Shown here: positions 31,412 through 43,514 of the stretch, one piece after another
Layout: each line of letters opens with the position of its first letter
Numbering within the stretch: the stretch's first letter is position 1
Source: Oscillospiraceae bacterium
Lineage (GTDB): Bacteria > Bacillota > Clostridia > Oscillospirales > Ruminococcaceae
DNA: 64,000 bases
Assembly: GCA_021199795.1 (NCBI GenBank)
Contig: JAJQHJ010000016.1
Location: 1 to 64,000, forward strand
Direction of reading: 5' to 3'
The notes under the pieces: model-generated
Told to the model about the DNA's origin: nothing
Seen by the model: only the letters and a program-made list of their open reading frames with translations
Database searches by the model: none
Program-made: the position numbers and the translations under genes

Positions 31412-34075
31412 CTACCTCAGCTTCTGCTTACTTGCAACAGCAGTTGCGACTGCTATTACCATCGGCAACATTGCCAGCACAATGCCGGTTGTCGGGTTGG
31501 TCTCTGCCGGGGTTTCAGTTTCTTCCGGCTCTTCATCCGGCTCGGGTTCGGTGTCGGTGTCTTCGACGGGTTCATCGATTACGACTTCCTCGATGGTTTC
31601 ATCGGTAGTGGTCTCTTCCTCAGTAGCTTCAGCTGTCATATACTCAGCGATATTTGCATCTACAGCCTCAACATACGTGTTGCCACATTCAGTGCAAACG
31701 ACCTTGACCGTAGCGGACTTGTAATCACTAGCCCAGGTGAAATCTGTGACCACATGATTATGACCAGTTGCCGCAGTCTCATCTGCCACATAGCTGTCGC
31801 CGCAGTTGGAGCAAGTATAAGTAGTGTACCCGCCCTCGGTACAAGTCGGCTCGGTTACTACTGCTTCGTATCTGTGACCAAGTGCTGCGGTCTCATCAGC
31901 AGTGTATGTATCACCACAAACAGAGCAAGTATAAGTTGTATACCCACCCTCTGTGCAGGTCGGCTCAGTTACGACTGCTTCGTAGGAGTGACCGGTTGCT
32001 GGGACAACTGTTGTTTCATTTGAAATCACTGCGCCACAGACTGTGCATCTGATGACGGTATCATAGGAACCGTCGGTGGTGCAGGTTACCGGAACTTCGT
32101 TTTCAATCGTGGGTTCACCGGGAGTGTGACCGGTGGCAGAAATCGCAACTTCCTGAATATCTGTGTAGGTCACATTTTCAAACACCGCTACTGCGGTATA
32201 TTTCGTGACCCCGTCACTCTCACATTCAGCATCAACGGTGGAGCTGGAAACCGTAGCCTCTATTCTCTGCTGGTCGTCGCCACTCTCGCAAGTAAACACC
32301 GCTGTTGCCGTGCTGTAATCCACCGCCCAAGTAAAGACAGGCTCGCCATAGGTATGACCGGTAGCAGCAACATAAGTGTCATCGTAGCTTTCGCCACAAT
32401 TTATACAAGTATGAGTAGTGTATCCCTGCTCGGTGCAAGTCGGGGCAGTTACTGTATCAACGTAACTATGTTCGATCATCGGGACTGTAAGCGTGCTTGT
32501 ATCTGTGATTTCTGTTGCAGCTTCTGAATCGCTATAGTATTTGCCACAGCCTGAGCAGTACCAATATTCCTCACTTCCGTCAGTAGTACAAGTCGCATCT
32601 ACGGCTGCATAATGAACGAGATTTGAGTGAGTGGTCTCATCGCCGGTATTATTATAGGATGACACCGTTCCGGTACATGTTGCGGTAGCATATACCAACA
32701 GATGAGTACTATCAAATATCGGATAGTCATCTGTGCCTAGAGTCTGATGCCAAGACGTCCCGCCGGAAACACTGTCATTCAGCAGGTATGCAACCTCACC
32801 GCTTGCAAATTCCTCAGCAGTCTTGAAAACAGGCTTGCCGGAACCAACATTATTGCCAACTCCTGCGCTTGCGGATGTAGAGAGATAATATGCGTTTGTT
32901 ATTGTTCCTCCGTTTTTCCCGGCAATTCCTCCGACATAGTTACTAGTTGTCCCGGAAACAGTGCCAACATTGTGGCAGTTCTGGATGGTATTCTTCGGGT
33001 AGTTGTAACCTACTAAACCGCCGATAAATGTAGACTTTGAAGTGCCGGAAACGGTACCTGCGTTGTAGCAATTGCTGATTGTAGCACCGGTTGCATTACT
33101 AACGCCAGCCAAGCCTCCAGCATAAACCGTACTCGTGGCTGTCGCAGTTACAACGCCTGCGTTGTAACACTCAGTGACAGTACATGAAGTGCCGACTTCA
33201 CCAAACAATCCACCTGCATATGCACTGCTTAATGTGCCTGACAAATCAGCAGTAACACTTCCGGTATTGTAGGAATCGCTGACGGTCGATTTAGAAGATA
33301 AATCTCCTACCAAACCGCCAACATATTCGGATTTGGCGTCATCATAAGAGACAGTTACGCTTCCGTTATTGCAGCTTGAGCTGATTGTGCCATTGCTGAG
33401 ACTTCCAGCCAGACCACCGGCATATAATTTGCCAATACCACTAGCAGTGACGGTAGCATTATTTACGCATCCAATCAAAGACGTATTATTTCCGTTTCCT
33501 GCAATTCCTCCAGCTATACATGCGCTGGTTGAAGATGTCTGCACACAAGAAACACTTCCGCTGACAGTGCAAGACTCAATAATAGTAGAACTTGATGAAT
33601 ATCCGACAATACCACCGGAATACGTAAAACCGGTAATATTACAACCAGACAGCGTTACATTTTTGATCGTTGCTGTGCTTACCATTCCAAACAAGCCGCC
33701 ATAGAGCGAAGTTGAGGACATATAAAGGTTGATGATGGTGTGTCCATCACCGTCAAATGTGCCCTTAAAATAACGTGGTGCGGCATTGCCAATTGGTGTC
33801 CAACTGATATTATTGAGATCTATGTCAGCTGTCAGGATATAATAACAGCTGCAATAGGTCGAGTTTGACGAGCCGTTGATGAGAGTTGCGAGATAGGCGA
33901 GCTGCGCACCTGTCGCAATCTGATATGGGTCGGTTTCAGTTCCCGAGCCTCCGGCAAAGGAGGTGGCTATTGTGCCATCCCAGGTATCGGCGGCTACGGT
34001 TGATATGGTGGTTATTGCTGTTGTGGTTATGAGCAAGCATAAGCTCAGAATCACTGCCAATAATTTTCTCTTCAT
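31412..34075 (-). CDS. secreted GLUG-repeat surface protein with NPTTG sorting-like tail
   Basis: An 887-aa protein. It has a signal peptide (MKRKLLAVILSLCLLITTTA, cleavage near VAA-D), then many GLUG-type repeats (YAGGLAGSLSNGTISS, YVGGLVGDLSSKSTVS and others, about residues 100-420) forming a beta-helix-like stalk. Next come cysteine-pair modules (TCTEGGYTTYTC-xx-CG, about 500-800), two of them near-identical 38-residue repeats. An acidic linker, NPTTG, a hydrophobic helix and KQKLR end the protein. It is probably exported and anchored to the wall, and adhesive or structural. Its mRNA leader has a stem that buries the ribosome-binding site. Confidence 0.85.
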   Translation of the reverse strand: MKRKLLAVILSLCLLITTTAITTISTVAADTWDGTIATSFAGGSGTETDPYQIATGAQLAYLATLINGSSNSTYCSCYYILTADIDLNNISWTPIGNAAPRYFKGTFDGDGHTIINLYMSSTSLYGGLFGMVSTATIKNVTLSGCNITGFTYSGGIVGYSSSSTIIESCTVSGSVSCVQTSSTSACIAGGIAGNGNNTSLIGCVNNATVTASGIGKLYAGGLAGSLSNGTISSSCNNGSVTVSYDDAKSEYVGGLVGDLSSKSTVSDSYNTGSVTADLSGTLSSAYAGGLFGEVGTSCTVTECYNAGVVTATATSTVYAGGLAGVSNATGATISNCYNAGTVSGTSKSTFIGGLVGYNYPKNTIQNCHNVGTVSGTTSNYVGGIAGKNGGTITNAYYLSTSASAGVGNNVGSGKPVFKTAEEFASGEVAYLLNDSVSGGTSWHQTLGTDDYPIFDSTHLLVYATATCTGTVSSYNNTGDETTHSNLVHYAAVDATCTTDGSEEYWYCSGCGKYYSDSEAATEITDTSTLTVPMIEHSYVDTVTAPTCTEQGYTTHTCINCGESYDDTYVAATGHTYGEPVFTWAVDYSTATAVFTCESGDDQQRIEATVSSSTVDAECESDGVTKYTAVAVFENVTYTDIQEVAISATGHTPGEPTIENEVPVTCTTDGSYDTVIRCTVCGAVISNETTVVPATGHSYEAVVTEPTCTEGGYTTYTCSVCGDTYTADETAALGHRYEAVVTEPTCTEGGYTTYTCSNCGDSYVADETAATGHNHVVTDFTWASDYKSATVKVVCTECGNTYVEAVDANIAEYMTAEATEEETTTDETIEEVVIDEPVEDTDTEPEPDEEPEETETPAETNPTTGIVLAMLPMVIAVATAVASKQKLR

Positions 34076-34187
34076 TAAAAACGCCTCCTTGTTATTTTCA
34101 TAGGAGGCTATATAGATATGACCTCCTATACTTTCGGTATGGAGGTTTTTACGGGTAAACGCGCGAAGCGCGTTACCCCCCCACAAA
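34076..34187 (-). promoter_or_regulatory. structured 5' leader with SD-sequestering stem (copy A)
   Basis: On the minus strand the ribosome-binding segment AGGAGGC (34083-34089) pairs perfectly with GCCTCCT (34102-34108). A second hairpin (CCTCCATAC / GTATAGGAGG, 34121-34146) and a third (GGGTAA...TTTACCC with a CGCG core, about 34152-34178) lie upstream. TTGTGGGGGGGTA (34174-34186), AAACCTCCATAC (34137-34148) and ATATCTAT also occur, in the same order, in the leader at 43313-43435. Confidence 0.7.
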
Positions 34188-34214
34188 AAATGGACTTTTT
34201 ATAAATTGGTTGTT

Positions 34215-34243
34215 GTGCGCCCTCTGTGTGGTGGAGGGCGCAC
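34215..34243 (-). terminator. strong hairpin after SGNH hydrolase gene
   Basis: A perfect 10-bp stem GTGCGCCCTC / GAGGGCGCAC with a 9-nt loop, 15 nt past the SGNH stop codon. No U-tract follows on the minus strand, so termination may be weak, or it may be a processing/stability stem. Confidence 0.5.
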
Positions 34244-34257
34244 AGGATGAAAAACCT

Positions 34258-35283
34258 TTACTTCTTCTTCGACAACCCAATACCAGCCAGGGCTATTGCC
34301 ATCGGGATGAGCGAGAGGACTATGCCGGTGGTCGGGTTTTCGGTGGTTTCAGTGGTGGCTTCGGTGGTCTCTGCTTCGGTTTCGGTCTCAGTCTCGGTGG
34401 AGGCTGTCGCGTTTTCATAGGCTGCTACCATAGCAGCGGCTATGGTCTCATGTCCTGTTGCATTCGGATGGAAGTCAAAGTTCATCGTGAGGATGTTGAC
34501 GTTTGTAGCAACTCCGGCAGAATAAACATCAACTACAATTACATTGTCACTCATGGCGTCAACCTGCGTGAGGAGCGCGTTGAATGCAGTTACAGCAGTG
34601 TCAAACATGGTACTGATTGCTGCATAGTCCTCAAGAGCCGCAAGCGAAGCATACGGGTTGTACTGATTCGCAAGGAGAATCACAACATCAGGATTGACGC
34701 TGAGAATACTTGTGATGATTGACTGGATGTTCGCGAGGGCTGATGTTGCGGCAGTGGAAACTGCGGTTGTGGCACCTGCAATGCCCTCCTCAGTCTGGAG
34801 AAATGCCATGACTGTGGCTATCTCTGTCTGATAGGAAGTGCCGTCGGTGAACCAGGTCTTGACGTCGTCGGCGGTGCAGCTCGTTCCATAGGCGGTGTTG
34901 TAAAGACTGAGAAGATACTCATAGAATGTCTGCATGAGATCATTGCCGCCGATGGTGAGGGTTACAACATCGACCATCGAAAGATAGGTGTCATACTCTC
35001 CGGTTGCCAGGGTTGCGGCTAAAGTTTCGGCAGTCAAGCCGGAAACGCCGTAGTTAAGTGTGGTTGCGCCAATTTCATTGCCGAACAGGGTTACAAAGCT
35101 CTCAGAGTCGGGGTCCGAAAGACCATATCCGGCGGTGATACTGTCGCCAAGGGCAAGATAGGTGGTTGTGTTCCGTGAAGCTATGAGCATGTTTGCGTCA
35201 GCAAAAGCTACATTAGTCAGCATACACACGGCAAGCACCATTGCCAGGGCTACGCTAAGGATTCTTCTTGTCATTTTTTTCAT
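34258..35283 (-). CDS. secreted SGNH/GDSL hydrolase with NPTTG sorting-like tail
   Basis: A 341-aa exported esterase-like protein. It has a signal peptide ending near VAFADA, block I YLALGDSITAGYG with the catalytic serine, block III LTIGGNDLMQ, and block V DFHPNATGHE with the Asp/His pair. A Thr/Glu-rich linker, NPTTG, a hydrophobic helix and SKKK end the protein. It probably removes acyl groups from a wall or dietary polysaccharide at the cell surface; the substrate is unknown. AAGGAGG precedes the ATG. Its promoter is at 35398-35426. Confidence 0.9.
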   Translation of the reverse strand: MKKMTRRILSVALAMVLAVCMLTNVAFADANMLIASRNTTTYLALGDSITAGYGLSDPDSESFVTLFGNEIGATTLNYGVSGLTAETLAATLATGEYDTYLSMVDVVTLTIGGNDLMQTFYEYLLSLYNTAYGTSCTADDVKTWFTDGTSYQTEIATVMAFLQTEEGIAGATTAVSTAATSALANIQSIITSILSVNPDVVILLANQYNPYASLAALEDYAAISTMFDTAVTAFNALLTQVDAMSDNVIVVDVYSAGVATNVNILTMNFDFHPNATGHETIAAAMVAAYENATASTETETETEAETTEATTETTENPTTGIVLSLIPMAIALAGIGLSKKK

Positions 35284-35397
35284 TTGGGTTTACCTCCTTG
35301 TTTTTACCAAGATATAGACTACTAATTTTACCGTGTTCACTAAAAATAAGTGCTCACTTATTAATTTCCTGTACTCTAATCTTATGTTTATGCAAAT

Positions 35398-35426
35398 ATT
35401 ATAGCATACATATATTGCTTTGTCAA
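35398..35426 (-). promoter_or_regulatory. sigma-A promoter for SGNH hydrolase gene
   Basis: Perfect TTGACA (35421-35426) and TATAAT (35398-35403), 17 bp apart on the minus strand. The leader is about 110 nt and contains the 8-bp dyad at 35345-35362. Confidence 0.85.
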
Positions 35427-35481
35427 TAGGTTTTTACGAAATATTGAGATTATTTTTTGAACAGCGTGATTTCAATAAAAA

Positions 35482-35535
35482 TTTATCGTTCCACGATAAA
35501 AAGTTATTGACAAACAATCTAAGATGTGCTATACT
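35482..35535 (+). promoter_or_regulatory. promoter and operator-like dyad of DUF2975/XRE operon
   Basis: TTGACA (35507-35512), a 17-bp spacer and TATACT (35530-35535). The dyad TTTATCG / CGATAAA (35482-35500) ends 6 bp before the -35 box and is a likely operator for the XRE repressor encoded in the operon. Confidence 0.75.
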
Positions 35536-35566
35536 GGTCTCACAAAAGATAAAAGGAGAGATAAAA

Positions 35567-36046
35567 ATGGATCTCAAAGTATTGGTAAGATGGCTTCGGG
35601 CGGTTATCGTCGGGGTCGGAATTTGTGGTTTGGTGGCTTATGGGGTGGTCTGTCCGCTCTGTGGGTTGAAAATTGTCGAGGATCACCCGGATGTGTCGGG
35701 GTGGTTTGTGCCGTGGCTGGTGTTCATACTGATTACGGCTGTTCCCTGCTATGCGGTGCTGGTTTTCTGCTGGAAGATTGTTGCTAAAATTGCGGATGGC
35801 AAAGCTTTCTCCTATGAGAACGCGAAATATTTCAGCGTGATGTCCTATCTCGCACTCGGGGATATTGCGTTCTTCTTCGTCGGAAATGTGGTGCTGCTGC
35901 TCATGAACATGAACCACCCGGCAGTGATTCTGGCTTCTCTTATAATAGTGTTCGTCGGGATTGCAGTTGCAGTGGTGTTTGCAACGCTTTCCCACCTCGT
36001 GAGAAAAGCCGCCGACTTGCAGCAAGAGAACGACCTGACGGTCTGA
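35567..36046 (+). CDS. DUF2975 domain membrane protein
   Basis: A 159-aa protein with four hydrophobic segments in the DUF2975 layout (VRWLRAVIVGVGICGLVAYG; WFVPWLVFILITAVPCYAVL; FSYENAKYFSVMSYLALGD; VILASLIIVFVGIAVAVVFA) and a short charged tail. The family usually sits immediately before a YozG-like XRE regulator, as here (9-bp gap). Its role is not established; such pairs may sense envelope conditions. AAAGGAGAG precedes the ATG at 35567. Confidence 0.85.
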   Translation: MDLKVLVRWLRAVIVGVGICGLVAYGVVCPLCGLKIVEDHPDVSGWFVPWLVFILITAVPCYAVLVFCWKIVAKIADGKAFSYENAKYFSVMSYLALGDIAFFFVGNVVLLLMNMNHPAVILASLIIVFVGIAVAVVFATLSHLVRKAADLQQENDLTV

Positions 36047-36055
36047 GGTGAAATT

Positions 36056-36283
36056 ATGGGCGAAATTATAATCAATATTGACGTCATGCTAGCCAAGCGC
36101 AAGATGAGTGTGACCGAGCTTGCCGAGAAAGTCGGCATCACAATTGCAAATATCTCTATCTTAAAGAACGGTCGTGCAAAGGCTATCAAGTTCTCAACCC
36201 TGGCGGCTCTCTGCGAAGCCCTTGACTGTCAGCCAGGAGATATTTTGGAGTATCGGAGGGTTGAAGATGAGGGTAATTCTTAG
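36056..36283 (+). CDS. XRE family HTH regulator (YozG-like)
   Basis: A 75-aa Cro/C1-type regulator consisting only of the helix-turn-helix domain (MSVTELAEKVGITIANISIL, KNGRAKAIKFSTLAALCEAL, CQPGDILEY). It probably controls its own operon through the dyad at 35482-35500. It overlaps the next gene by 17 bp. Confidence 0.9.
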   Translation: MGEIIINIDVMLAKRKMSVTELAEKVGITIANISILKNGRAKAIKFSTLAALCEALDCQPGDILEYRRVEDEGNS

Positions 36284-36707
36284 GTTTATTGCGCTGATAG
36301 TAGTCGTAACGGTGACCCTCTTCGGCGGATTTATTTCGTATATCTTCCCGCAAACCTACTGCGACGTTATCGAAATCAACTGGGGAATCGTCATCCCGAC
36401 CGATGGCGGATATTCTCTGGAAGTCTCTGCCGACTCGGGCGCAAGCTTTAACGGCGATGGGACGAGGTATCATGTCATGTACTTCGATGATGCCGAGAGA
36501 ATCAGTTATCTGCTTGGTTGGAGCAAAGAGATTCCAGAAAGCATTATCGACTACTCGGAGCAGCTCTTGGACGAGCTTGATATTTACTACAGACCTGATT
36601 ACGGAAGCTGCGTATTCTATACTCAAACCAAGAGTGATGGCAGCCAGATTCTGATTTTCTGGGATGAAAGCAGGCAGGAGATGTATGTTTTGGAGGAGTT
36701 CCTGTGA
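36267..36707 (+). CDS. hypothetical membrane-anchored protein (146 aa)
   Basis: ATG at 36267 after GGAGGG. An N-terminal membrane helix (MRVILRFIALIVVVTVTLFG) is followed by a soluble extracytoplasmic domain of about 120 residues rich in Tyr/Asp. No family is recognised. It is translationally linked to the XRE gene upstream and to the next gene (4-bp overlap), so it belongs to the DUF2975/XRE operon. Confidence 0.65.
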   Translation: MRVILRFIALIVVVTVTLFGGFISYIFPQTYCDVIEINWGIVIPTDGGYSLEVSADSGASFNGDGTRYHVMYFDDAERISYLLGWSKEIPESIIDYSEQLLDELDIYYRPDYGSCVFYTQTKSDGSQILIFWDESRQEMYVLEEFL

Positions 36708-37132
36708 CTAAGAGGAGAATTGTTGCAATTGTAGTTGCCGTAGTGTTTGCGGCACTGTGTCTGGCGGCAGTCAGGATTTGGTTTACGCCGAGGGCTCGGG
36801 CGGCGATTTTTGTCGCTATGTACGGAGACTATATTGAGGAGAAGTATGCAGATGGGATTATCGTCACCGAGGGAATTCTCTGCCGTCAGGCGACATGGTA
36901 CGGGAAGACTTATCGCTATCAGATGATAGAATATGACTTCTATGCCTTTGGCGACACCTACTATGGTTGCTACTACTCTCCTGACGACAAGCCGATGTCG
37001 TATGCCGAGACTAACTATCACCTCGTCAAGCAGAGCGATGGCTACTGGACCTGGGAAGAAAAAGGCGGAGATAATCACGGGGAGGTTGCAAAAATTCGTG
37101 AGGGGTGGTATTATTATAGTGTAAGCTTTTAA
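36704..37132 (+). CDS. hypothetical membrane-anchored protein (142 aa)
   Basis: The GTG start overlaps the previous stop (GTGA). It has the same build as its neighbour: an N-terminal helix (RRIVAIVVAVVFAALCLAAV) then an extracytoplasmic domain rich in Tyr/Trp (YGKTYRYQMIEYDFYAFGDT). No family is recognised. It ends 14 bp before the polysaccharide deacetylase. Confidence 0.65.
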   Translation: MTKRRIVAIVVAVVFAALCLAAVRIWFTPRARAAIFVAMYGDYIEEKYADGIIVTEGILCRQATWYGKTYRYQMIEYDFYAFGDTYYGCYYSPDDKPMSYAETNYHLVKQSDGYWTWEEKGGDNHGEVAKIREGWYYYSVSF

Positions 37133-37146
37133 TAGGAGGCATCACT

Positions 37147-37971
37147 ATGCAAAAAATGTTATTCCCGAATGGGTTGAAGAAAGCGTTTACGACCAGTTAT
37201 GATGACGGGTGTTATGATGACATCCGGCTGATGGAGCTGATGGAGGAGTATGGCATCAAGGGCACCTTTAATATCAGTTCTCAGATTTACCGCGAAGAGA
37301 GCACGAAGCCTTACGGCGTGTGGCCCAGAGTAACTTTGACCGAGGCTCTCGAAGAGTACCCGAAGCATGGGGTTGAGATTGCCGTTCATGGGCTTCACCA
37401 CAGAGACTTCACACAGCTCACCGAGCCGGAGCTCTACTGCGAAATTGCCGCAGACAAGGCGAATCTTGAAATGCAGTATGGCGGAGTTGTCCGGGGTGCT
37501 GCCTATCCCTATGGGTCATTCAACAACAGGGCGGTTGAGGCGTTAAGAAAATGCGGAATCAAGTATTGCAGGACGGTCTGCACACGCGACGATTTCGGCA
37601 TGCCTGAGGACTGGCTGAGGCTCTTTGCTACCTGCCACCACGGCGATCAGAGAATGCCCGAGCTTCTCGACAGGTTCGTCTCGACCGAATTTGACGACTG
37701 CCGGATGTTCTATCTTTGGGGACACACTGCCGAATTCAGGCGCGACGATAACTGGGACGTCATCGAGAACGCGTTCAAGAAAGTCAGCGGCAATCCGGAT
37801 ATTTGGTTCGCAACCAACATTGAAATATGCGAATACCACAAGGCATATCAATCTCTTGAATACTCCACCGACCCCCGCTCACACGCAATCTATAACCCGA
37901 CCGCCAAGGATGTCTGGGTTGAGGTTGACGGGAGGGCGGTTGTGGTCAAGAGTGGAGAAGTTCTGGGATAA
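37147..37971 (+). CDS. polysaccharide deacetylase family protein (NodB/CE4-like)
   Basis: A 274-aa protein with the NodB-fold motifs AFTTSYDDGCYDDIRLM (the second Asp as metal ligand), VEIAVHGLHHRDFTQL (His pair) and GAAYPYGSFNNRAVEAL (Arg/Pro-Tyr groove). It lacks a signal peptide, so it may act in the cytoplasm or on small sugars, unlike wall-acting relatives. GGAGG lies before the ATG. It is last in the DUF2975 operon or independently expressed. Confidence 0.85.
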   Translation: MQKMLFPNGLKKAFTTSYDDGCYDDIRLMELMEEYGIKGTFNISSQIYREESTKPYGVWPRVTLTEALEEYPKHGVEIAVHGLHHRDFTQLTEPELYCEIAADKANLEMQYGGVVRGAAYPYGSFNNRAVEALRKCGIKYCRTVCTRDDFGMPEDWLRLFATCHHGDQRMPELLDRFVSTEFDDCRMFYLWGHTAEFRRDDNWDVIENAFKKVSGNPDIWFATNIEICEYHKAYQSLEYSTDPRSHAIYNPTAKDVWVEVDGRAVVVKSGEVLG

Positions 37972-37974
37972 AAT

Positions 37975-38044
37975 TGTAGGGGCGGATATCATCCGCCCGC
38001 ATACCTCCAGTGACCCGCTCGGGCGGATGATATCCGCCCCTACA
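37975..38044. repeat. MITE-like palindromic element, copy B
   Basis: Two perfect 25-bp inverted arms (37975-37999 and 38020-38044) start TGTAGGGGCGGATATCATCC and flank a 20-bp loop. The left end matches copy A at 26015. It is non-coding and lies 3 bp after the deacetylase stop. Confidence 0.75.
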
Positions 38045-38052
38045 TATGGCGC

Positions 38053-38104
38053 AAAAAAAGCCTCCCCTGAAAGGGGAGGTGCCGGCATAGCCGGCGGAGG
38101 GGTT
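38053..38104 (-). repeat. dispersed two-hairpin repeat, copy 3, acting as terminator
   Basis: On the minus strand: CCCCTCC, hairpin GCCGGC-TAT-GCCGGC, hairpin CCTCCCC-TTTCA-GGGGAGG, then seven T. It has the same plan as 19992-20034 and 31353-31407. It lies just past the DUF4956 stop and would terminate that operon. Confidence 0.65.
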
Positions 38105-38110
38105 TCCAAA

Positions 38111-38773
38111 TTACTGACCGGTATATTCCACCATCACCGCGCTTATCACGCCATCCACTTCGTAGAGCTTATCTACGAGGCGGGTGTTTTTCTTTTTCAG
38201 GCGGATATTGGCAGTCAGTTCGGTTTCACCCTGGTATCTCGAACGTCCGAGAGTCTTGGCTTTCAGCGCGGTCATTATGTCGGAAATATTCTCCTCGGCG
38301 GAGGTTTCATATCTTATAACCAGGACATAAGTCCTCTTCCCTCTTGCAATCACTGTGAAGATGATGTAGACGAGGGCTATTCCAAGCGTCGCGATAAGTG
38401 CGAACGGATAGAGACCTGCTCCTGAGGTGATTCCGGAAGCTATTCCCCAGAAGAGAAAGCCCACATCGAGCGGGTCTTTCACGGCAGACCTAAATCTCAC
38501 AATCGACAGTGCGCCGACCATGCCTAATGACAAGACAAGATTCGAGCCTATAACCAAAACTATGAACGCCGTTATTACCGTAATCATGACGATGAGGACG
38601 GCGAAATTCTCGCTGTAGACGGCTCCTCTGTAGAAGACCTTATAGACGAAATAGATTATAATCCCGCACAGAAGTGCGCAGACAAGGGTTACGAGTATGT
38701 AAGAGACGGTCAGGTGCTCAACGAGACCCAGCTGCTCAATGCTTTCTTTCAGTACTGCCTTAATGCTGCTCAT
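38111..38773 (-). CDS. DUF4956 domain membrane protein
   Basis: The 220-aa protein has three to four membrane helices and the family signature SLGMVGALSIVRFRSAVKDP, then a cytoplasmic C-terminal domain (YVLVIRYETSAEENISDIMT). DUF4956 proteins are regularly encoded next to VTC-domain proteins, as here (24 bp apart). Their joint role, possibly in polyphosphate or surface-polymer handling, is not settled. Confidence 0.88.
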   Translation of the reverse strand: MSSIKAVLKESIEQLGLVEHLTVSYILVTLVCALLCGIIIYFVYKVFYRGAVYSENFAVLIVMITVITAFIVLVIGSNLVLSLGMVGALSIVRFRSAVKDPLDVGFLFWGIASGITSGAGLYPFALIATLGIALVYIIFTVIARGKRTYVLVIRYETSAEENISDIMTALKAKTLGRSRYQGETELTANIRLKKKNTRLVDKLYEVDGVISAVMVEYTGQ

Positions 38774-38797
38774 ATTTTAACTTCCTTTCACATGATT

Positions 38798-39535
38798 TTA
38801 AAGGCTGATAGCCTGCGGCTTGTAGCTGTTCACGGCGTCACGGCAGGTTGTGAACTTGGAGACGGCTATCTTCTCCCCTCCGACGCCTGAAACAAGCATC
38901 GAAAGATGTTTCGGGATGAAGTCGTCGTATTTGACCTCCATTATCACCATGCAATCCGGATATATGGGAACGGTGAGGAGGTCTTCATCGAACATATCTA
39001 CGCTTGATAAGCCAGCCCGAAGAGCCTTGTCAAAGGTGATTCTGACATTCCCTATCGGCTCAACATAGGCTTCCCTCACATAGTCGACCACAACCGACGG
39101 TCTCAAGCCCTTTCCTCCCCAGAGGGAGAGAAATTCGGCTGTTACGAAGCTGTCGTCAGGCTTTAGAAGCGAGTTGTCGCCATTTATGAGAGCCCTGGCG
39201 CAATCAAAGGTTATGTCTGTACCGGTCTTCCTTATCCGGTCGCCGTTTTTCTCCTTACATTCAAGCCTGATTACGTCTTGGGAGAAATTATATGTCCTGA
39301 TTCTGAACTTCTTGCGGTGAGATACTCCTGCTATTTTGTCCCAGTAGGATGACTTGTAGATATCGTCGAAATAGAGGCTCCGGATGAAGTAGTCGCCATT
39401 CTTAAGCGAGTGCGAATCACGCTTCATTATAGCAGAGATCCGGGTGCGCGCCGTGACATACTCCGCCTTTGACATGAGGAGCTTTATCTCATGACGGTAC
39501 TTCCCAGAGGTGGGCTCAGAGTATTTTGTCTTCAT
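38798..39535 (-). CDS. VTC domain (polyphosphate polymerase-like) protein
   Basis: The 245-aa protein has the tunnel-fold motifs RHEIKLLMSKAEYV, FIRSLYFDDIYKSSYWDK, KKFRIRTYN and IRLECKEKNGDRIRKTG, ending in ILEVKYDDFIPKHL-like basic/acidic strands. VTC4 in yeast makes polyphosphate from ATP; bacterial relatives next to DUF4956 are uncharacterised. It overlaps the YdbC-like gene by 20 bp. Confidence 0.85.
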   Translation of the reverse strand: MKTKYSEPTSGKYRHEIKLLMSKAEYVTARTRISAIMKRDSHSLKNGDYFIRSLYFDDIYKSSYWDKIAGVSHRKKFRIRTYNFSQDVIRLECKEKNGDRIRKTGTDITFDCARALINGDNSLLKPDDSFVTAEFLSLWGGKGLRPSVVVDYVREAYVEPIGNVRITFDKALRAGLSSVDMFDEDLLTVPIYPDCMVIMEVKYDDFIPKHLSMLVSGVGGEKIAVSKFTTCRDAVNSYKPQAISL

Positions 39536-39776
39536 CTACATCATCCCCGCCGAGGTCTACGGGTTCGCCCTTGATTATGTGGGCTAGGTTCTGGAACTCC
39601 TCTTCGGTCAAAGTCACACCCTTGCTCATACGGGTATGGTCGGGCGACCAGTCACGGATGTCATATTTCGGAACGCCCTCGTTCCAGCTGACCTTATTTA
39701 ATTCCTTTGTCCAGCCGCGGGCGGTCTCAGAAAGAATTCCAAAATGCTCCTTGATTTCATAAGTAAGTTCCGCCAT
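39516..39776 (-). CDS. PC4/YdbC family ssDNA-binding protein
   Basis: The 86-aa protein matches the YdbC pattern: IKEHFGILSETARGWTKELN, KVSWNEGVPKYDIRDWSPDH and MSKGVTLTEEEFQNL. PC4-fold dimers bind single-stranded DNA or RNA. An acidic tail (GGDDVDEDKIL) follows the domain. It lies between the flippase and VTC genes and is co-transcribed with them. Confidence 0.88.
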   Translation of the reverse strand: MAELTYEIKEHFGILSETARGWTKELNKVSWNEGVPKYDIRDWSPDHTRMSKGVTLTEEEFQNLAHIIKGEPVDLGGDDVDEDKIL

Positions 39777-39790
39777 AATAGTGTTCCTTT

Positions 39791-41233
39791 CTAGTTTCTT
39801 ATAAATTTAGCTTTTAATTTCTCCGGCATAAGCATCATCAAAGCCTGCCAGAGGTCTTTTATATTCAGCGCAAATGAGATTACGAACAGCACGCCGAGTA
39901 CGAGATAGAGCATCCATCCGTGCTCAAACGTAATCTGGTTTATGATGACCATTGCCGCCATTACTGCCGTATTAATCAGGATCTTCGGCATCGAGAAATC
40001 ATAGTGGATGAGTCTGCGGGTGTCGTAGAGCCTGTAGAAGAAGACTGCGAAATAGGCAACGAACGTTGCGAACGCCGCGCCATAGATTCCGAACGACGGA
40101 ATCAGTGCGAAGTTGAGGATGATATTTATAACCCCCGCAACAAGGGAGGTATAGAACGAATGCTTGGTCTTCTTCTCGGCTATGTAGACGGAGCCTAAGA
40201 AAGTGTTGAAGCAGGTGAAAACGGTCGCCAGAGTCAGGAGCGGCGAATAGAGATAGGACTCAAAGTACTGCTCATTGATCCAGACCTGCGTTATCGGCTT
40301 GATTAAGAGGAGGATTCCGCACGCCAGGACATACATGAACGCTGAACACATCCGGAAAACATCGGTGTAGAACTTCTCTCTTTCGGCGGAGCCGTTCTCG
40401 GTGATTGCGGACATGTTCCACGCCTGTGAGAACATCGTGAATATGGTCGTCAGGATTGTCGGGATCTTATATGCAATGGCGTTGATGCCTGTGAGGTATT
40501 CGCCATGGAAAATTCTGATTATGAATCTGTCGGATATGCTCGTTATCAGCCAGAGTAGGTTTGTCGACATCAGGGGTGCCGCATATTTTATCATGCTCTT
40601 GGCAGTCTCTTTGTCCATGCTCTTCGGCGAAATATATCTCCAGAGTCTGCCGGCAGTGAAGAGGAATATACTCGAAATAAGATCAGAAAGTATTATCGCG
40701 AGCAGGTATCCGGTGGTTCCCATGTCGAATCCGACAAGGAAGAGGATATCAAGAAGAAGCATCACAAGGGTGCAAATGATTCCGTCCACGGCGAACAGTG
40801 TGACCTTGCCGCGCCCTCGGGTGAAGAACATGTTTATCTGCCGCAAAGACGAGGTGCAGACGTATATATAGAGTATCACCGTGTAGCCGTCGACATAATC
40901 AAACAGCGATATTATCGGGAAGATGAGTGCCATCGCCGCCATTCCGACTACGTATACGCTCAGGCAGGTGGTGTAGACTTTCTTATAATCTGTTATCTCT
41001 TTTGAATCAAGACCAAATCTTAAAGCAGCCTCGGAAATTGAGATAGTGAAAATCGGGATGAGGATATTTGCAGTCTGGGCGATGAGATCGACCGTTCCAT
41101 ACTCCTCGGGTGTCAGACATGCAGTATAAAGTGGTACTAAAATAAGCACCAGGAGCTTTGAGCCGAATGAGCCTATGGCGAAGATAAATGTATTTGCCAT
41201 GAGTTTTTTGAAGTTTTTATTCTCGCTCGCCAA
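39791..41233 (-). CDS. polysaccharide flippase (Wzx/MVF superfamily)
   Basis: The 480-aa membrane protein has about 14 hydrophobic segments (FIFAIGSFGSKLLVLILVPL, YTACLTPEEYGTVDLIAQ). The frame is intact, unlike the homologue at 4276. The start is TTG with AAGGAAGG 7 nt upstream. A perfect TATAAT promoter lies at 41269-41297. It heads a four-gene unit with YdbC, VTC and DUF4956 genes, pointing to a second surface-polymer locus. Confidence 0.88.
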   Translation of the reverse strand: MASENKNFKKLMANTFIFAIGSFGSKLLVLILVPLYTACLTPEEYGTVDLIAQTANILIPIFTISISEAALRFGLDSKEITDYKKVYTTCLSVYVVGMAAMALIFPIISLFDYVDGYTVILYIYVCTSSLRQINMFFTRGRGKVTLFAVDGIICTLVMLLLDILFLVGFDMGTTGYLLAIILSDLISSIFLFTAGRLWRYISPKSMDKETAKSMIKYAAPLMSTNLLWLITSISDRFIIRIFHGEYLTGINAIAYKIPTILTTIFTMFSQAWNMSAITENGSAEREKFYTDVFRMCSAFMYVLACGILLLIKPITQVWINEQYFESYLYSPLLTLATVFTCFNTFLGSVYIAEKKTKHSFYTSLVAGVINIILNFALIPSFGIYGAAFATFVAYFAVFFYRLYDTRRLIHYDFSMPKILINTAVMAAMVIINQITFEHGWMLYLVLGVLFVISFALNIKDLWQALMMLMPEKLKAKFIRN

Positions 41234-41268
41234 AGGTGCGCCTTCCTTTCCTTAGAAACAATATCTCT

Positions 41269-41297
41269 ATTATAATAGCACCGTACAAAAAAATCAA
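41269..41297 (-). promoter_or_regulatory. sigma-A promoter for the flippase-ydbC-VTC-DUF4956 operon
   Basis: TTGATT (41292-41297) and TATAAT (41269-41274) with a 17-bp spacer on the minus strand. Confidence 0.75.
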
Positions 41298-41415
41298 GAA
41301 AAATTGCAAAAAGGGCTATGAAAATATCCCCGACTGTGATATACTTTAAGTATTAGTTGAAACAGGTATGATCAAAAGCCCTGTGTTGTTGATTTTATGA
41401 AAAGGAGTATTATGT

Positions 41416-41544
41416 ATGAATAAAGAAAACGTTTTGAGAATCCTAGTGATTCTGTCAGCCCTTACATGCATTTTGGGCATAGTCAAGCTTACAGCAGAAG
41501 CCCTGAGCCTTGGGACACATAAGTATTTTGATGTGAGCGAATAA
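41416..41544 (+). CDS. 42-aa putative membrane peptide
   Basis: ATG at 41416 with AGGAG 8 nt upstream; TAA at 41542-41544. It has a basic start (MNKENVLRI), one hydrophobic helix (LVILSALTCILGIVKLTAEA) and a polar tail. TATACT at about 41338 could be its -10 box, with a poor -35. A strong hairpin (41561-41592) follows. No family is recognised. Confidence 0.55.
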   Translation: MNKENVLRILVILSALTCILGIVKLTAEALSLGTHKYFDVSE

Positions 41545-41555
41545 CCTCTATACAA

Positions 41556-41592
41556 CAAAAGAATCTCCCCGCCGGTAAGGACGGGGAGATTC
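41556..41592. terminator. hairpin terminator
   Basis: A perfect 11-bp stem GAATCTCCCCG / CGGGGAGATTC. On the minus strand it is followed by TTTTGTTG, so it fits as terminator of the secreted protein gene at 41654; it also lies behind the 42-aa gene. Confidence 0.7.
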
Positions 41593-41653
41593 TCGCTTCT
41601 GTGCTATGTGGGAGCGCAGAATGACATTTGAAGAAAAAAGGAATTATCAGTAA

Positions 41654-43312
41654 TTAGTCTACAGGTACAAGAACCTGGATGCTGACGATATTGTAGGATG
41701 CAGAAGTGTTAGAGATAAACACAATTGCATTTCCTCCATCAGCATATCCGCCGTCTACCCAAGCCTGATAGATGGTTGCGCCGTCATAGATGATTGTGAT
41801 TCCATCATCGGATGTGCAGTCGATTACGTCGCTCTCGTCAGCGGAGGTGTGACCGGCTGTTCCAAGTGCCATAGGTGTGCTGTTATTTGACCACCAGGAA
41901 TCGATAAAGAGAAGCTTCTCATATCCGCCGTCGGCATAGGAAACGACAGTCTCAGTATCTCTGGTTACAACTAAGATTGCGCCATCTTCTGCAAGTGCAT
42001 CCATCAAAGATGTATCAGAATCAAGATTGACCTGTTCCCAGTTGCCACACTTAAGGCTTGTAGTGTTGGAATAAAGAACATTATACTCGGTATCACCAAG
42101 AGTTACGGTTCCGGGCTCTTCCTCGCCGCCGATGTACATACCACACAATGTGCAATATCCATCAGAATCGACATCATGAGGAATAGCAATAAAGTTCCTG
42201 CGACCGTTTCTGGTCATAATGATAGCATGATAGTCTTCATTGACATAGATAAAGCGAATGCCAGAAGTACCGTTGCCCGAATCACTTCCCGAGCCACTCA
42301 CGTCTGTGGTGATTTTGAGATAAGCATAATTAGTGTATTCAATTTTAGATGGCTGAGAGAGCGTTGCTGTTTCTTCATAGGTGCCATATACTGAGTTTTT
42401 ATCAGCACTTGAACCAACGAGAATTCCTAACGCTTCATCAGAGGGAGTGAGCGTCAGATAGCTATAGCTACTGTAGGCACTGTTAGCAGCACAGAAATCT
42501 ACGCCGCCGTCAGCTATAACGGTTGAATTTCCAATTACGTTCACACTTGTTGTCAAGATTGCAGGGCGATCTCCTCCAACCGTACACGTCAGGCTTGAAT
42601 TATCAACTGTGAGTAAAGTACTGTTGGTTTTTTTCTGAGAATAAAATCCATATCCCGCAGTGCAGTTAATATTAACGACTGAATTGGTAATAGTAGTTGC
42701 AGCACCTTTATAAGAATAAATGCCTTTTGCGGTGGTATTTGAAGCGGTATAATTGATATCAAGATTGACACCAGTGATTGCAAGAGTGCTTTGGACATAC
42801 AAGCCATTAAGAATGACGTTATCCATCGCAACTGTGCAGTTTGAGATGGTGGTTGCACTGGTATTACCTAAATATATGCCGTAGTTAACTTTGTCAATCG
42901 CAAGTGTGCCATCACCATCACTCGTGATGGTCAGTTTACAGGTGCCAGTCCCAACATAGATTCCGTAATAGGATGTATAGTTGTTTGCGTTAGTGGTAAT
43001 GGTATTGTTGCCCTCGAGTTTGATGGTTAGTCCCTTAGAGACACTTCCCGTACTGGCACAGATACCGGCATACCTGGTGCCTCCTTTCGCAATAGAAATG
43101 TTTGCGTTATGCAAGGTGAGTGTGTTGGTGGTTGAGTCAAACTGAGCATAACTGTCGGTGCCGTACTCAATTTTATAATCAGTCTGAGTCAAAATATCGG
43201 TACCGCCGACATAAAGGTTGGTAATGTTGTTTACTGCCGCAAAAGCACCCACCGGCAGGATTGACAGCACCATCAGTGCGCTGAGCATGACGCACAGCAG
43301 TTTTTTTAGCAT
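41654..43312 (-). CDS. secreted beta-helix-like protein
   Basis: The 552-aa protein has a signal peptide (MLKKLLCVMLSALMVLSILP, cleavage near AFA-A), then a repetitive, Thr/Asn-rich beta-helix region (YAGICASTGSVSKGLTIKLE, YYGIYVGTGTCKLTITSDG, YGIYLGNTSATTISNCTV). A module IRFIYVNEDYHAI...DVDSDGYCTLC is shared with the protein at 57677. Unlike its surface neighbours it ends in LVPVD with no NPTTG tail, so it is probably released. Binding or polysaccharide-lyase-like roles are possible; no catalytic residues are assigned. Confidence 0.75.
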   Translation of the reverse strand: MLKKLLCVMLSALMVLSILPVGAFAAVNNITNLYVGGTDILTQTDYKIEYGTDSYAQFDSTTNTLTLHNANISIAKGGTRYAGICASTGSVSKGLTIKLEGNNTITTNANNYTSYYGIYVGTGTCKLTITSDGDGTLAIDKVNYGIYLGNTSATTISNCTVAMDNVILNGLYVQSTLAITGVNLDINYTASNTTAKGIYSYKGAATTITNSVVNINCTAGYGFYSQKKTNSTLLTVDNSSLTCTVGGDRPAILTTSVNVIGNSTVIADGGVDFCAANSAYSSYSYLTLTPSDEALGILVGSSADKNSVYGTYEETATLSQPSKIEYTNYAYLKITTDVSGSGSDSGNGTSGIRFIYVNEDYHAIIMTRNGRRNFIAIPHDVDSDGYCTLCGMYIGGEEEPGTVTLGDTEYNVLYSNTTSLKCGNWEQVNLDSDTSLMDALAEDGAILVVTRDTETVVSYADGGYEKLLFIDSWWSNNSTPMALGTAGHTSADESDVIDCTSDDGITIIYDGATIYQAWVDGGYADGGNAIVFISNTSASYNIVSIQVLVPVD

Positions 43313-43514
43313 AAAAAGTTCCTCCTCAAAATATCAGTTGACCGGCTGAGGAGGATAGATATAAAAAATCCCCCAAGCACAAGTCGTGTATGGAGGTTTA
43401 AAAATGGGCACAAAAAAACGAGTACCCCCCCACAAGGCAAAGCCCTGTTAGAAGCGCAGGTATATACGCTTCTAAATACGTCTACATAATAACATATTAT
43501 TGTCTCAAATGCAA
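43313..43514 (-). promoter_or_regulatory. promoter and structured 5' leader with SD-sequestering stem (copy B)
   Basis: TTGCAT (43509-43514), 17 bp, TATTAT (43486-43491) on the minus strand. The leader of about 165 nt has a perfect 9-bp hairpin TTAGAAGCG / CGCTTCTAA (about 43447-43474), then TTGTGGGGGGGTA (43423-43435), AAACCTCCATAC (43388-43399) and ATATCTAT. Finally TCCTCCTCA (43347-43355 on the minus strand) pairs perfectly with the ribosome-binding segment TGAGGAGGA (43320-43328). Segment order matches copy A at 34076-34187. Confidence 0.72.

Follow-up and report, generated by a model that had tools for sequence, protein, structure and literature searches.

Trp-type transcription attenuators are built on mutually exclusive hairpins. 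In antiterminator sites of the BglG/LicT type, one hairpin shares sequence with the 5' arm of the hairpin that follows it, and in Bacillus subtilis pyrG the Gs added by RNA polymerase stuttering at +1 form a run that keeps the terminator from forming by pairing with its pyrimidine-rich 5' arm. Here we describe a leader RNA family of one bacterial clade that resembles each of these systems in part. Two copies lie in a 64,000-nt stretch of DNA (the window: positions 1-64,000, forward strand, of contig JAJQHJ010000016.1, Oscillospiraceae bacterium assembly GCA_021199795.1), each in front of a gene for a secreted protein. The family is real, is absent from Rfam and is apparently undescribed. We read it, with a probability of about 0.62, as a cis-acting attenuator of surface-protein genes in which five RNA strands exchange partners.

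From 5' to 3', the leader comprises a hairpin (P0); strand S1, a run of 5-9 Gs preceded by a base denoted Y; a variable hairpin (P1); S2, CCUCC followed by a base denoted R; S3, GGAGG or GGGGG; S4, which is CCUCC-like; and S5, a Shine-Dalgarno (SD) sequence or a terminator arm. As in trp-type attenuators, short strands pair alternately, and the final hairpin either ends transcription or masks the ribosome site. The alternating, exclusive pairings are supported by covariation for S2:S3 and S3:S4, and for S1:S2 by the match between Y and R and, weakly, by energy. Unlike trp-type leaders, this RNA is made of five strands of repeated CCUCC/GGAGG, and its genes largely encode surface proteins rather than biosynthetic enzymes; no leader peptide was evident by eye, no systematic test for upstream open reading frames having been made. 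With pyrG it shares a 5' G-run facing a pyrimidine-rich 5' arm, but its Gs are encoded in the template and lie far from the predicted start. The overlap of an upstream hairpin with the 5' arm of the next recalls BglG/LicT sites, although the leader RNA is longer and closed by a G-run, and no CAT_RBD protein was found in 31 genomes of the genus. Cyclic di-GMP (c-di-GMP) riboswitches control Gram-positive surface genes, according to PMC6366702 and PMC4933901, and act on the same kind of target; the present leader differs in having no Rfam match at gathering score and no conserved aptamer core. For the G-tract aspect, the closest published analogue found (PMC9187656) is the slippage control of sortase-dependent pili in bifidobacteria, which are likewise gut commensals with a variable G-tract at pilus and surface genes; that tract is intragenic, whereas the one described here is a pairing strand. 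At Spy1336/R28-Spy1337 of Streptococcus pyogenes, the length of an intergenic homopolymer (T-tract) alters surface-protein transcript levels; this is a single-locus T-tract, and the abstract describes no leader RNA switch (abstract of PMC7098570).

Copies of the leader and covariation of its strands

The first-pass annotation of the window, made from the sequence of the two leaders, had read covariation out of their two ribosome-site stems. The CCUCC/GGAGG core is identical in both, however, and two copies give little; what carries weight is the set of about 98 copies. In the window's genome, 8 matches to the pattern GGGGGG-TA...ACCTCC stand against 0 to a reversed control pattern. With a longer pattern, 12 of 60 genomes were positive, the window's own included, and three matches in other genera (L021, L032, L042) were judged to be chance and dropped before counting. 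A stricter pattern run over a species-genome collection returned 16 stretches, 15 in metagenome-assembled genomes (MAGs) of Oscillospiraceae/Ruminococcus and one in Gluconobacter (L066), the latter again judged to be chance and dropped before counting. Covariance model R1, built from 15 copies, yielded 68 matches in 11 of the 31 genomes of the window's genus. Model R2, built from 67 aligned matches, yielded 102 at E<=0.01, also in 11 of 31 genomes, each of which held 2-17 (10 in that of the window). The two genome lists share ten members; the weak single match of G019 (L077) was lost and G030 was gained. The resulting alignment, A7, holds 98 copies (94 distinct) at E<=0.001 for 285 kb searched; L033 and L077 were dropped before counting as cut-off or poor matches, and so were five flagged repeats, although the second place of L100 and L107 stay in A7 as rows. 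The search of related genomes that the first-pass annotation had proposed as a check returned many further copies, with compensatory changes in P1 and P2.

Wider sampling, in overlapping sets of 247 genomes from the family, 295 from the order and 391 from the class and with stricter filters that lose weak matches, gave matches in the window's own genome only, and the element seems restricted to a single clade within one genus. Two exact patterns found 0 stretches in viral contigs. No Rfam 15 family matched either leader at gathering score, in a scan of the whole window or in permissive scans of both leaders, the latter giving sub-threshold matches only (the strongest, with E 0.016, falls immediately 5' of leader 1); at 20 further loci no family was found at the leaders and only two tRNAs elsewhere. 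This agrees with the earlier view that the leaders match no known riboswitch class, c-di-GMP classes included. Searches of open-access literature, including passages of PMC8040213 and PMC2965389, turned up nothing recognised as describing the element; supplementary tables were out of reach and may list it.

Alignment cells assigned to P1 and P2 are paired in 90.8% of cases, versus 80.8% in shuffles and 38-56% in slid controls, and 174 cells are changed on both sides versus 48 in shuffles, in an alignment that was fitted to the P1/P2 structure and favours it. The alternative pairings were tested with the flanks outside the constant cores. For S3:S4, the 87 copies with a recognised S4 were reduced to representatives. 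With 36 representatives, the native duplex energy was -14.07 versus -11.94 on permutation (standard deviation 0.33), a value reached in 0/5000 permutations; the corresponding figures were 0/5000 with 21 representatives, 5/5000 with 12, and 37/5000 for the 13 representatives of CCTCC-only copies. Control pairings were null, both for S3 against the sequence immediately flanking S4 on either side and for S1:S3, S2:S4 and S1:S4. The possibility that P3, the hairpin formed by S4 and S5, is a duplicate of P2 was also considered and gave no signal. The flanks of S2 and S4 are dissimilar; hence S4 is not a copy of S2 and there is no duplicated hairpin.

Evidence for S1:S2 comes from Y and R, the bases that flank the G-run on its 5' side and S2 on its 3' side. 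Among the 98 copies, Y:R is C-G in 51, T-A in 28, T-G in 18, A-G in 1 and C-A in 0. A tree-based null reached the observed association in 2/200 cases, and R is the strongest partner of Y among the columns tested. S3:S4 pairing is well supported and S1:S2 pairing moderately so. Taken together, the covariation of S3:S4 and S2:S3 and the Y:R match support a five-strand attenuator, and the strand-exchange anatomy is likely.

Anatomy and the proposed strand exchange

The conserved bases of the leader are those of the exchanging strands, and the linker and loops show no strong conservation. P1 is closed by GGG-CCC and can be a minimal hairpin or carry inserts tens of nucleotides long; the long insertions of L146, L147, L149, L155, L156 and L160 are (near-)identical among paralogues of one genome. 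P0 differs between groups, yet over 61 non-redundant upstream regions its mean stability z-score is -2.1, with 39/61 below -1.5. By eye, a small additional hairpin (P0b) adjoins S1 in L003, L037, L086, L093, L101, L104, L116, L124, L141 and L157, with varied but complementary stems (CAAGG/CCTTG, CTGAG/CTCAG, CAGAG/CTCTG, CCAAG/CTTGG) and frequently a TGARAA-like loop. A sixth strand, upstream and pairing with S1, was rejected for want of a general signal (duplex z -0.33; 6/61 below -1.5). None of P0, the P1 hairpin with its G-run, the second CCUCC/GGAGG hairpin (P2) or the alternative pairings had been noticed in the first-pass annotation.

The expression platform, with minority classes assigned by hand, is an SD sequence in 69 of the 98 copies, a terminator-like hairpin in 17, P2 followed by a U-run in 6, S3 serving as SD sequence in 3, and other in 3. 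The leader had been taken for a translation-controlling element. It is indeed a conserved cis-acting leader that hides a ribosome site, but with the 17 terminator-like hairpins and the six U-runs after P2 it is not only translational.

TTGACA/TATAAT-like pairs occur in 43/61 upstream regions, versus 4/61 in one dinucleotide shuffle and a mean of 8.9 in mononucleotide shuffles. All 43 would place the start 27-85 nt before the G-run, and 24 of them 43-48 nt before it. Reiterative transcription from a G-run at +1, suggested by a TATAAT near the run in L007, was considered and rejected: none of the 61 regions (0/61) has a promoter-like pair with +1 within 4 nt of the run, and a -10 element alone that would do so is present in 4/61.

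The proposed switch would work as follows. Where a promoter is recognisable, transcription would start 5' of the G-run, in many copies some 43-48 nt ahead of it. In the OFF fold, which would be the resting one, S2:S3 (P2) and S4:S5 (P3) would form, the last Gs of S1 closing P1, and P3 would hide the ribosome site or end transcription. In the mutually exclusive ON fold, S1 would take S2, leaving S3 free to take S4 and S5 released. By the same logic, S1:S2 would also mean ON in the shorter variants, in which S3 itself may be the ribosome site or P2 itself terminator-like. The direction of the switch, the formation of both folds in cells and what tips the balance are inferred.

Several observations weigh against this scheme. 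The outermost P2 pair is broken in 51/94 rows, and the S4 positions were chosen by pattern. S1:S2 rests on one covarying pair, because the G-run and CCUCC cores are invariant, and permutation of its duplex gave a weak result (92/2000; 247/5000 with 36 representatives; 1666/5000 with 12). One copy (L157) breaks Y:R, three associations inside the P2 arms outscore it, and only two of five changes in Y share a branch with a change in R. The six copies with a U-run after P2 have no P3, and three copies are unclassed. No promoter was recognised in 18/61 upstream regions, leader 1 (by eye) being among such cases. Lastly, at equilibrium the OFF fold is the more stable by a mean of 11.1 kcal/mol (range 2.3-25.8; 42 copies). 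With OFF so far favoured, ON must be either kinetic, that is, caught during transcription, or factor-assisted.

The two leaders of the window and their genes

Both leaders, with shared blocks in the same order as first reported, are present in the window; they lie on the minus strand, which had not been stated. The block TGTGGGGGGGTA, a 12-mer around the G-run, has exactly two copies in the window, against 0.09 expected when up to one mismatch is allowed. The block AAACCTCCATAC also has exactly two copies; allowing two mismatches, 4 are found against 4.6 expected, which is chance level. Reading the sequence bore out the ribosome-site stems of 7 bp in leader 1 and 9 bp in leader 2. Compared with shuffles, folding gave z-scores of -4.6 (0/200) for leader 1 and -3.5 (1/200) for leader 2. 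The starts of both genes (34075->31412 and 43312->41654) were inferred from the ribosome sites. The features are as follows.

34176..34182 (-): leader 1 S1, G7 run with Y = T at 34183 (sequence; covariance-model match 34120-34187, -)
34153..34178 (-): leader 1 P1, GGGTA hairpin closed with TACCC and overlapping the 3' part of S1 (folding; covariation)
34141..34145 (-): leader 1 S2, CCUCC, followed by R = A at 34140 (sequence)
34122..34126 (-): leader 1 S3, GGAGG; the P2 hairpin is 34121-34146 (folding; covariation)
34103..34107 (-): leader 1 S4, CCUCC, 5' arm of P3 (sequence)
34084..34088 (-): leader 1 S5, GGAGG ribosome-binding site; P3 is 34083-34108 and the start codon 34075-34073 (sequence; folding)
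31412..34075 (-): leader 1 gene, secreted protein with GLUG motifs (Pfam GLUG) and a C-terminal tail of NPTTG, transmembrane (TM) segment and basic residues (by eye)
43448..43475 (-): leader 2 P0a, 5' hairpin (sequence; P0 stability over the 61 upstream regions)
43433..43447 (-): leader 2 P0b, small hairpin CAGGG...CCTTG adjoining S1 (sequence)
43425..43431 (-): leader 2 S1, G7 run with Y = T at 43432 (sequence; covariance-model match 43368-43436, -)
43406..43427 (-): leader 2 P1 (folding)
43392..43396 (-): leader 2 S2, CCUCC, with R = A at 43391 (sequence)
43370..43374 (-): leader 2 S3, GGGGG, 3' arm of P2, followed by a U-run (sequence; folding)
43350..43354 (-): leader 2 S4, CCUCC (sequence)
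43321..43325 (-): leader 2 S5, GGAGG ribosome-binding site; P3 is 43320-43355 and the start codon 43312-43310 (sequence; folding)
43486..43514 (-): possible leader 2 promoter, TATTAT at 43486-43491 and a weak TTGCAT at 43509-43514 with a 17-nt spacer (by eye)
41654..43312 (-): leader 2 gene, secreted protein with no Pfam family (Pfam scan)

The stems homologous to P0b of leader 2 differ in related copies yet stay paired, as judged by eye. The possible promoter of leader 2 is a by-eye candidate: its -35 element falls below the limits of the promoter scans and it is absent from their listing. Leader 1 has no clear promoter of its own by eye and is placed after a gene for a GDSL-type lipase with a signal peptide (34258-35283, -; Pfam), which lies directly upstream. 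The lipase also ends in an NPTTG-TM-basic tail, which in both proteins we take to be a sortase-type signal. Elsewhere in the window, a T-box leader (RF00230; 47877-48084, +) is the sole Rfam match at gathering score.

A called gene follows 95 of the 98 copies, the other 3 being without one. By a simple rule, a signal-peptide-like start is present in 77/95 of these genes, versus 10/54 open reading frames (ORFs) of the window, which accords with the expectation that further copies would lie upstream of secreted proteins. Start-calling errors account for at least L014 and L112 among the 18 misses, and L039 is a wrong ORF; L007, L023 and L024, together with L039, form a group with an N-terminal membrane segment. 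Pfam families were matched by 15/20 chosen proteins. The matches include BspA-type leucine-rich repeats (LRR), SpaA, the Gram-positive pilin backbone, InlB-type repeats, signal peptidase S26, FHA, PP2C and Sel1, as well as a coupling-type ATPase, a dynamin-like GTPase and Wzz, which has an ATPase beside it. For terminator-type copies the scanned protein may lie several hundred bases away, and some may not be true targets. The predicted targets are mainly surface proteins with signal peptides. The terminator-type copies also include L144. Near the terminator-type copies L106, L110, L120 and L121 lie genes for Sel1, PP2C, FHA/DUF6382 and a coupling ATPase, which might belong to a secretion or pilus cluster. 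L154 (G000:C26 14859), of the same type, precedes a Wzz and a P-loop ATPase gene, likely the start of an exopolysaccharide operon.

What may set the balance between the folds

The balance of the proposed five-strand switch would be kinetic and set during transcription. When the run was varied in silico in 68 copies, S1:S2 in a transcript that does not yet reach S3 averaged 0.0-0.1 kcal/mol from the minimum at G>=7 and 1.3 kcal/mol above it at G5-6. A kinetic balance tuned by G-run length through slippage, possibly also by a trans factor, is in our view the most likely arrangement.

S1 is G5 in 1, G6 in 32, G7 in 55, G8 in 8 and G9 in 2 of the 98 copies. Among near-identical copies (>=90% over >=180 nt), its length differs in 28/55 pairs, which overlap and are not independent; an earlier tally of 27/57 took in runs besides S1. 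Other runs of 6-8 nt differ in the same pairs in 8/41 cases for T and 0/16 for A (8/57 together). More than one S1 length is present in 10/13 clusters of near-identical copies, and the flanks of L034 (G7) and L027 (G6) are identical. The S1 tract thus changes length much faster than its surroundings, as contingency tracts do. A side observation concerns L006:1471-1520 (G000:C20 near 35025), where a 388-aa ORF that includes a membrane segment opens with a G9 run. Further upstream, an ATG frame whose first residues are a short His-rich stretch is out of frame at the G9 length, and the run may be a contingency tract within coding sequence.

A specific form of the strand-exchange attenuator follows if G-run length alters the hold of S1 on S2: a phase-variable (contingency) leader in which slippage in S1 would set each surface gene ON or OFF independently, with neither a ligand nor a dedicated regulator. 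We regard this as possible but tentative. The length differences among near-identical copies, set against the fewer differences in A- and T-runs, point towards it, and G6 and G7, the two common lengths, lie on either side of the computed run length from which S1:S2 is the minimum fold as long as S3 is not yet transcribed. S1 is all G, though GGAGG would be a better partner for CCUCC; a weak G-U pair in S1:S2 could instead serve to let S3 displace S1. The pairs overlap, however, and the models were trained on G-runs, such that a GGAGG-type S1 could be under-detected (L161, with GGGAGGG, scored below the limit of A7). G6-7 is also short, as classic slippage tracts are longer, and the coherent target set suggests a common signal, although the targets are of a kind known for contingency tracts (PMC9187656). 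Judged from the alignments, slippage would be a credible tuner of expression, and this tuning by the G-run is the most interesting step of the proposed model. Its extension to phase variation of the whole regulon is a doubtful proposition: the hypermutable unit would be one strand of a five-strand RNA switch, neither a promoter spacer nor a reading frame, and each G gained or lost in S1 would shift the co-transcriptional choice between S1:S2 and S2:S3, amounting to a heritable, per-gene RNA dimmer.

The coherent targets would also fit a trans-acting regulator, an RNA-binding protein or small RNA that holds S1 or the S1:S2 hairpin in the manner of an antiterminator and switches the surface and secretion regulon together; this, too, is conceivable rather than probable. 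In its favour, the 20 scanned proteins form a coherent set (LRR, SpaA, pilin backbone, InlB, S26, Wzz, FHA, PP2C, coupling ATPase). Some antiterminators are protein-stabilised, and S1:S2 would, like these, enclose P1 and an asymmetric 3' linker. The weakly conserved linker and loops argue against a bound factor. In a search confined to CsrA, CAT_RBD and LoaP among RNA-binding proteins, CsrA was found in 0/31 genus genomes (3/14 control genomes positive) and the BglG/LicT-type CAT_RBD in 0/31 (4/14 control genomes positive), and both effectors were rejected because the proteins were not found. LoaP exceeded the curated cut-off in 0/31 genus genomes, but also in 0/14 control genomes, and the single sub-cut-off match per genome is probably an ordinary NusG.

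Alternatively, the leader might be static, P2 and P3 only lowering translation or stabilising the mRNA, with the S3:S4 and S1:S2 complementarity incidental to the repeated CCUCC/GGAGG. The far greater stability of the OFF fold and the weak S1:S2 energy test are what such a leader would give. The S3:S4 flanks co-vary beyond the core, though, while control pairings do not and no hairpin is duplicated; with the Y:R match and the terminator-like ends of 17 copies, these results make a static leader improbable. A classical metabolite riboswitch with an undescribed aptamer in P0 or P1 is very improbable, for although translational and terminator-type platforms coexist and surface genes are also targets of c-di-GMP riboswitches (PMC6366702, PMC4933901), nothing in Rfam matches at gathering score and P0 and P1 are highly variable, the conserved bases lying in the exchanging strands. 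The earlier suggestion of a ligand-responsive element fares no better, a ligand pocket being unlikely because P0 and P1 are so variable outside those strands. RF01051 (c-di-GMP-I) had no match in the window's genome (G000), but none in any control genome either.

With about 100 copies, the leader is a structured RNA class not represented in Rfam. It marks a set of genes for surface display (LRR adhesins, pilins, signal peptidase and Wzz), and the gut Oscillospiraceae clade that carries it is known here from MAGs. Should the G-run prove to be the set point, a single element would unite RNA attenuation with contingency loci.

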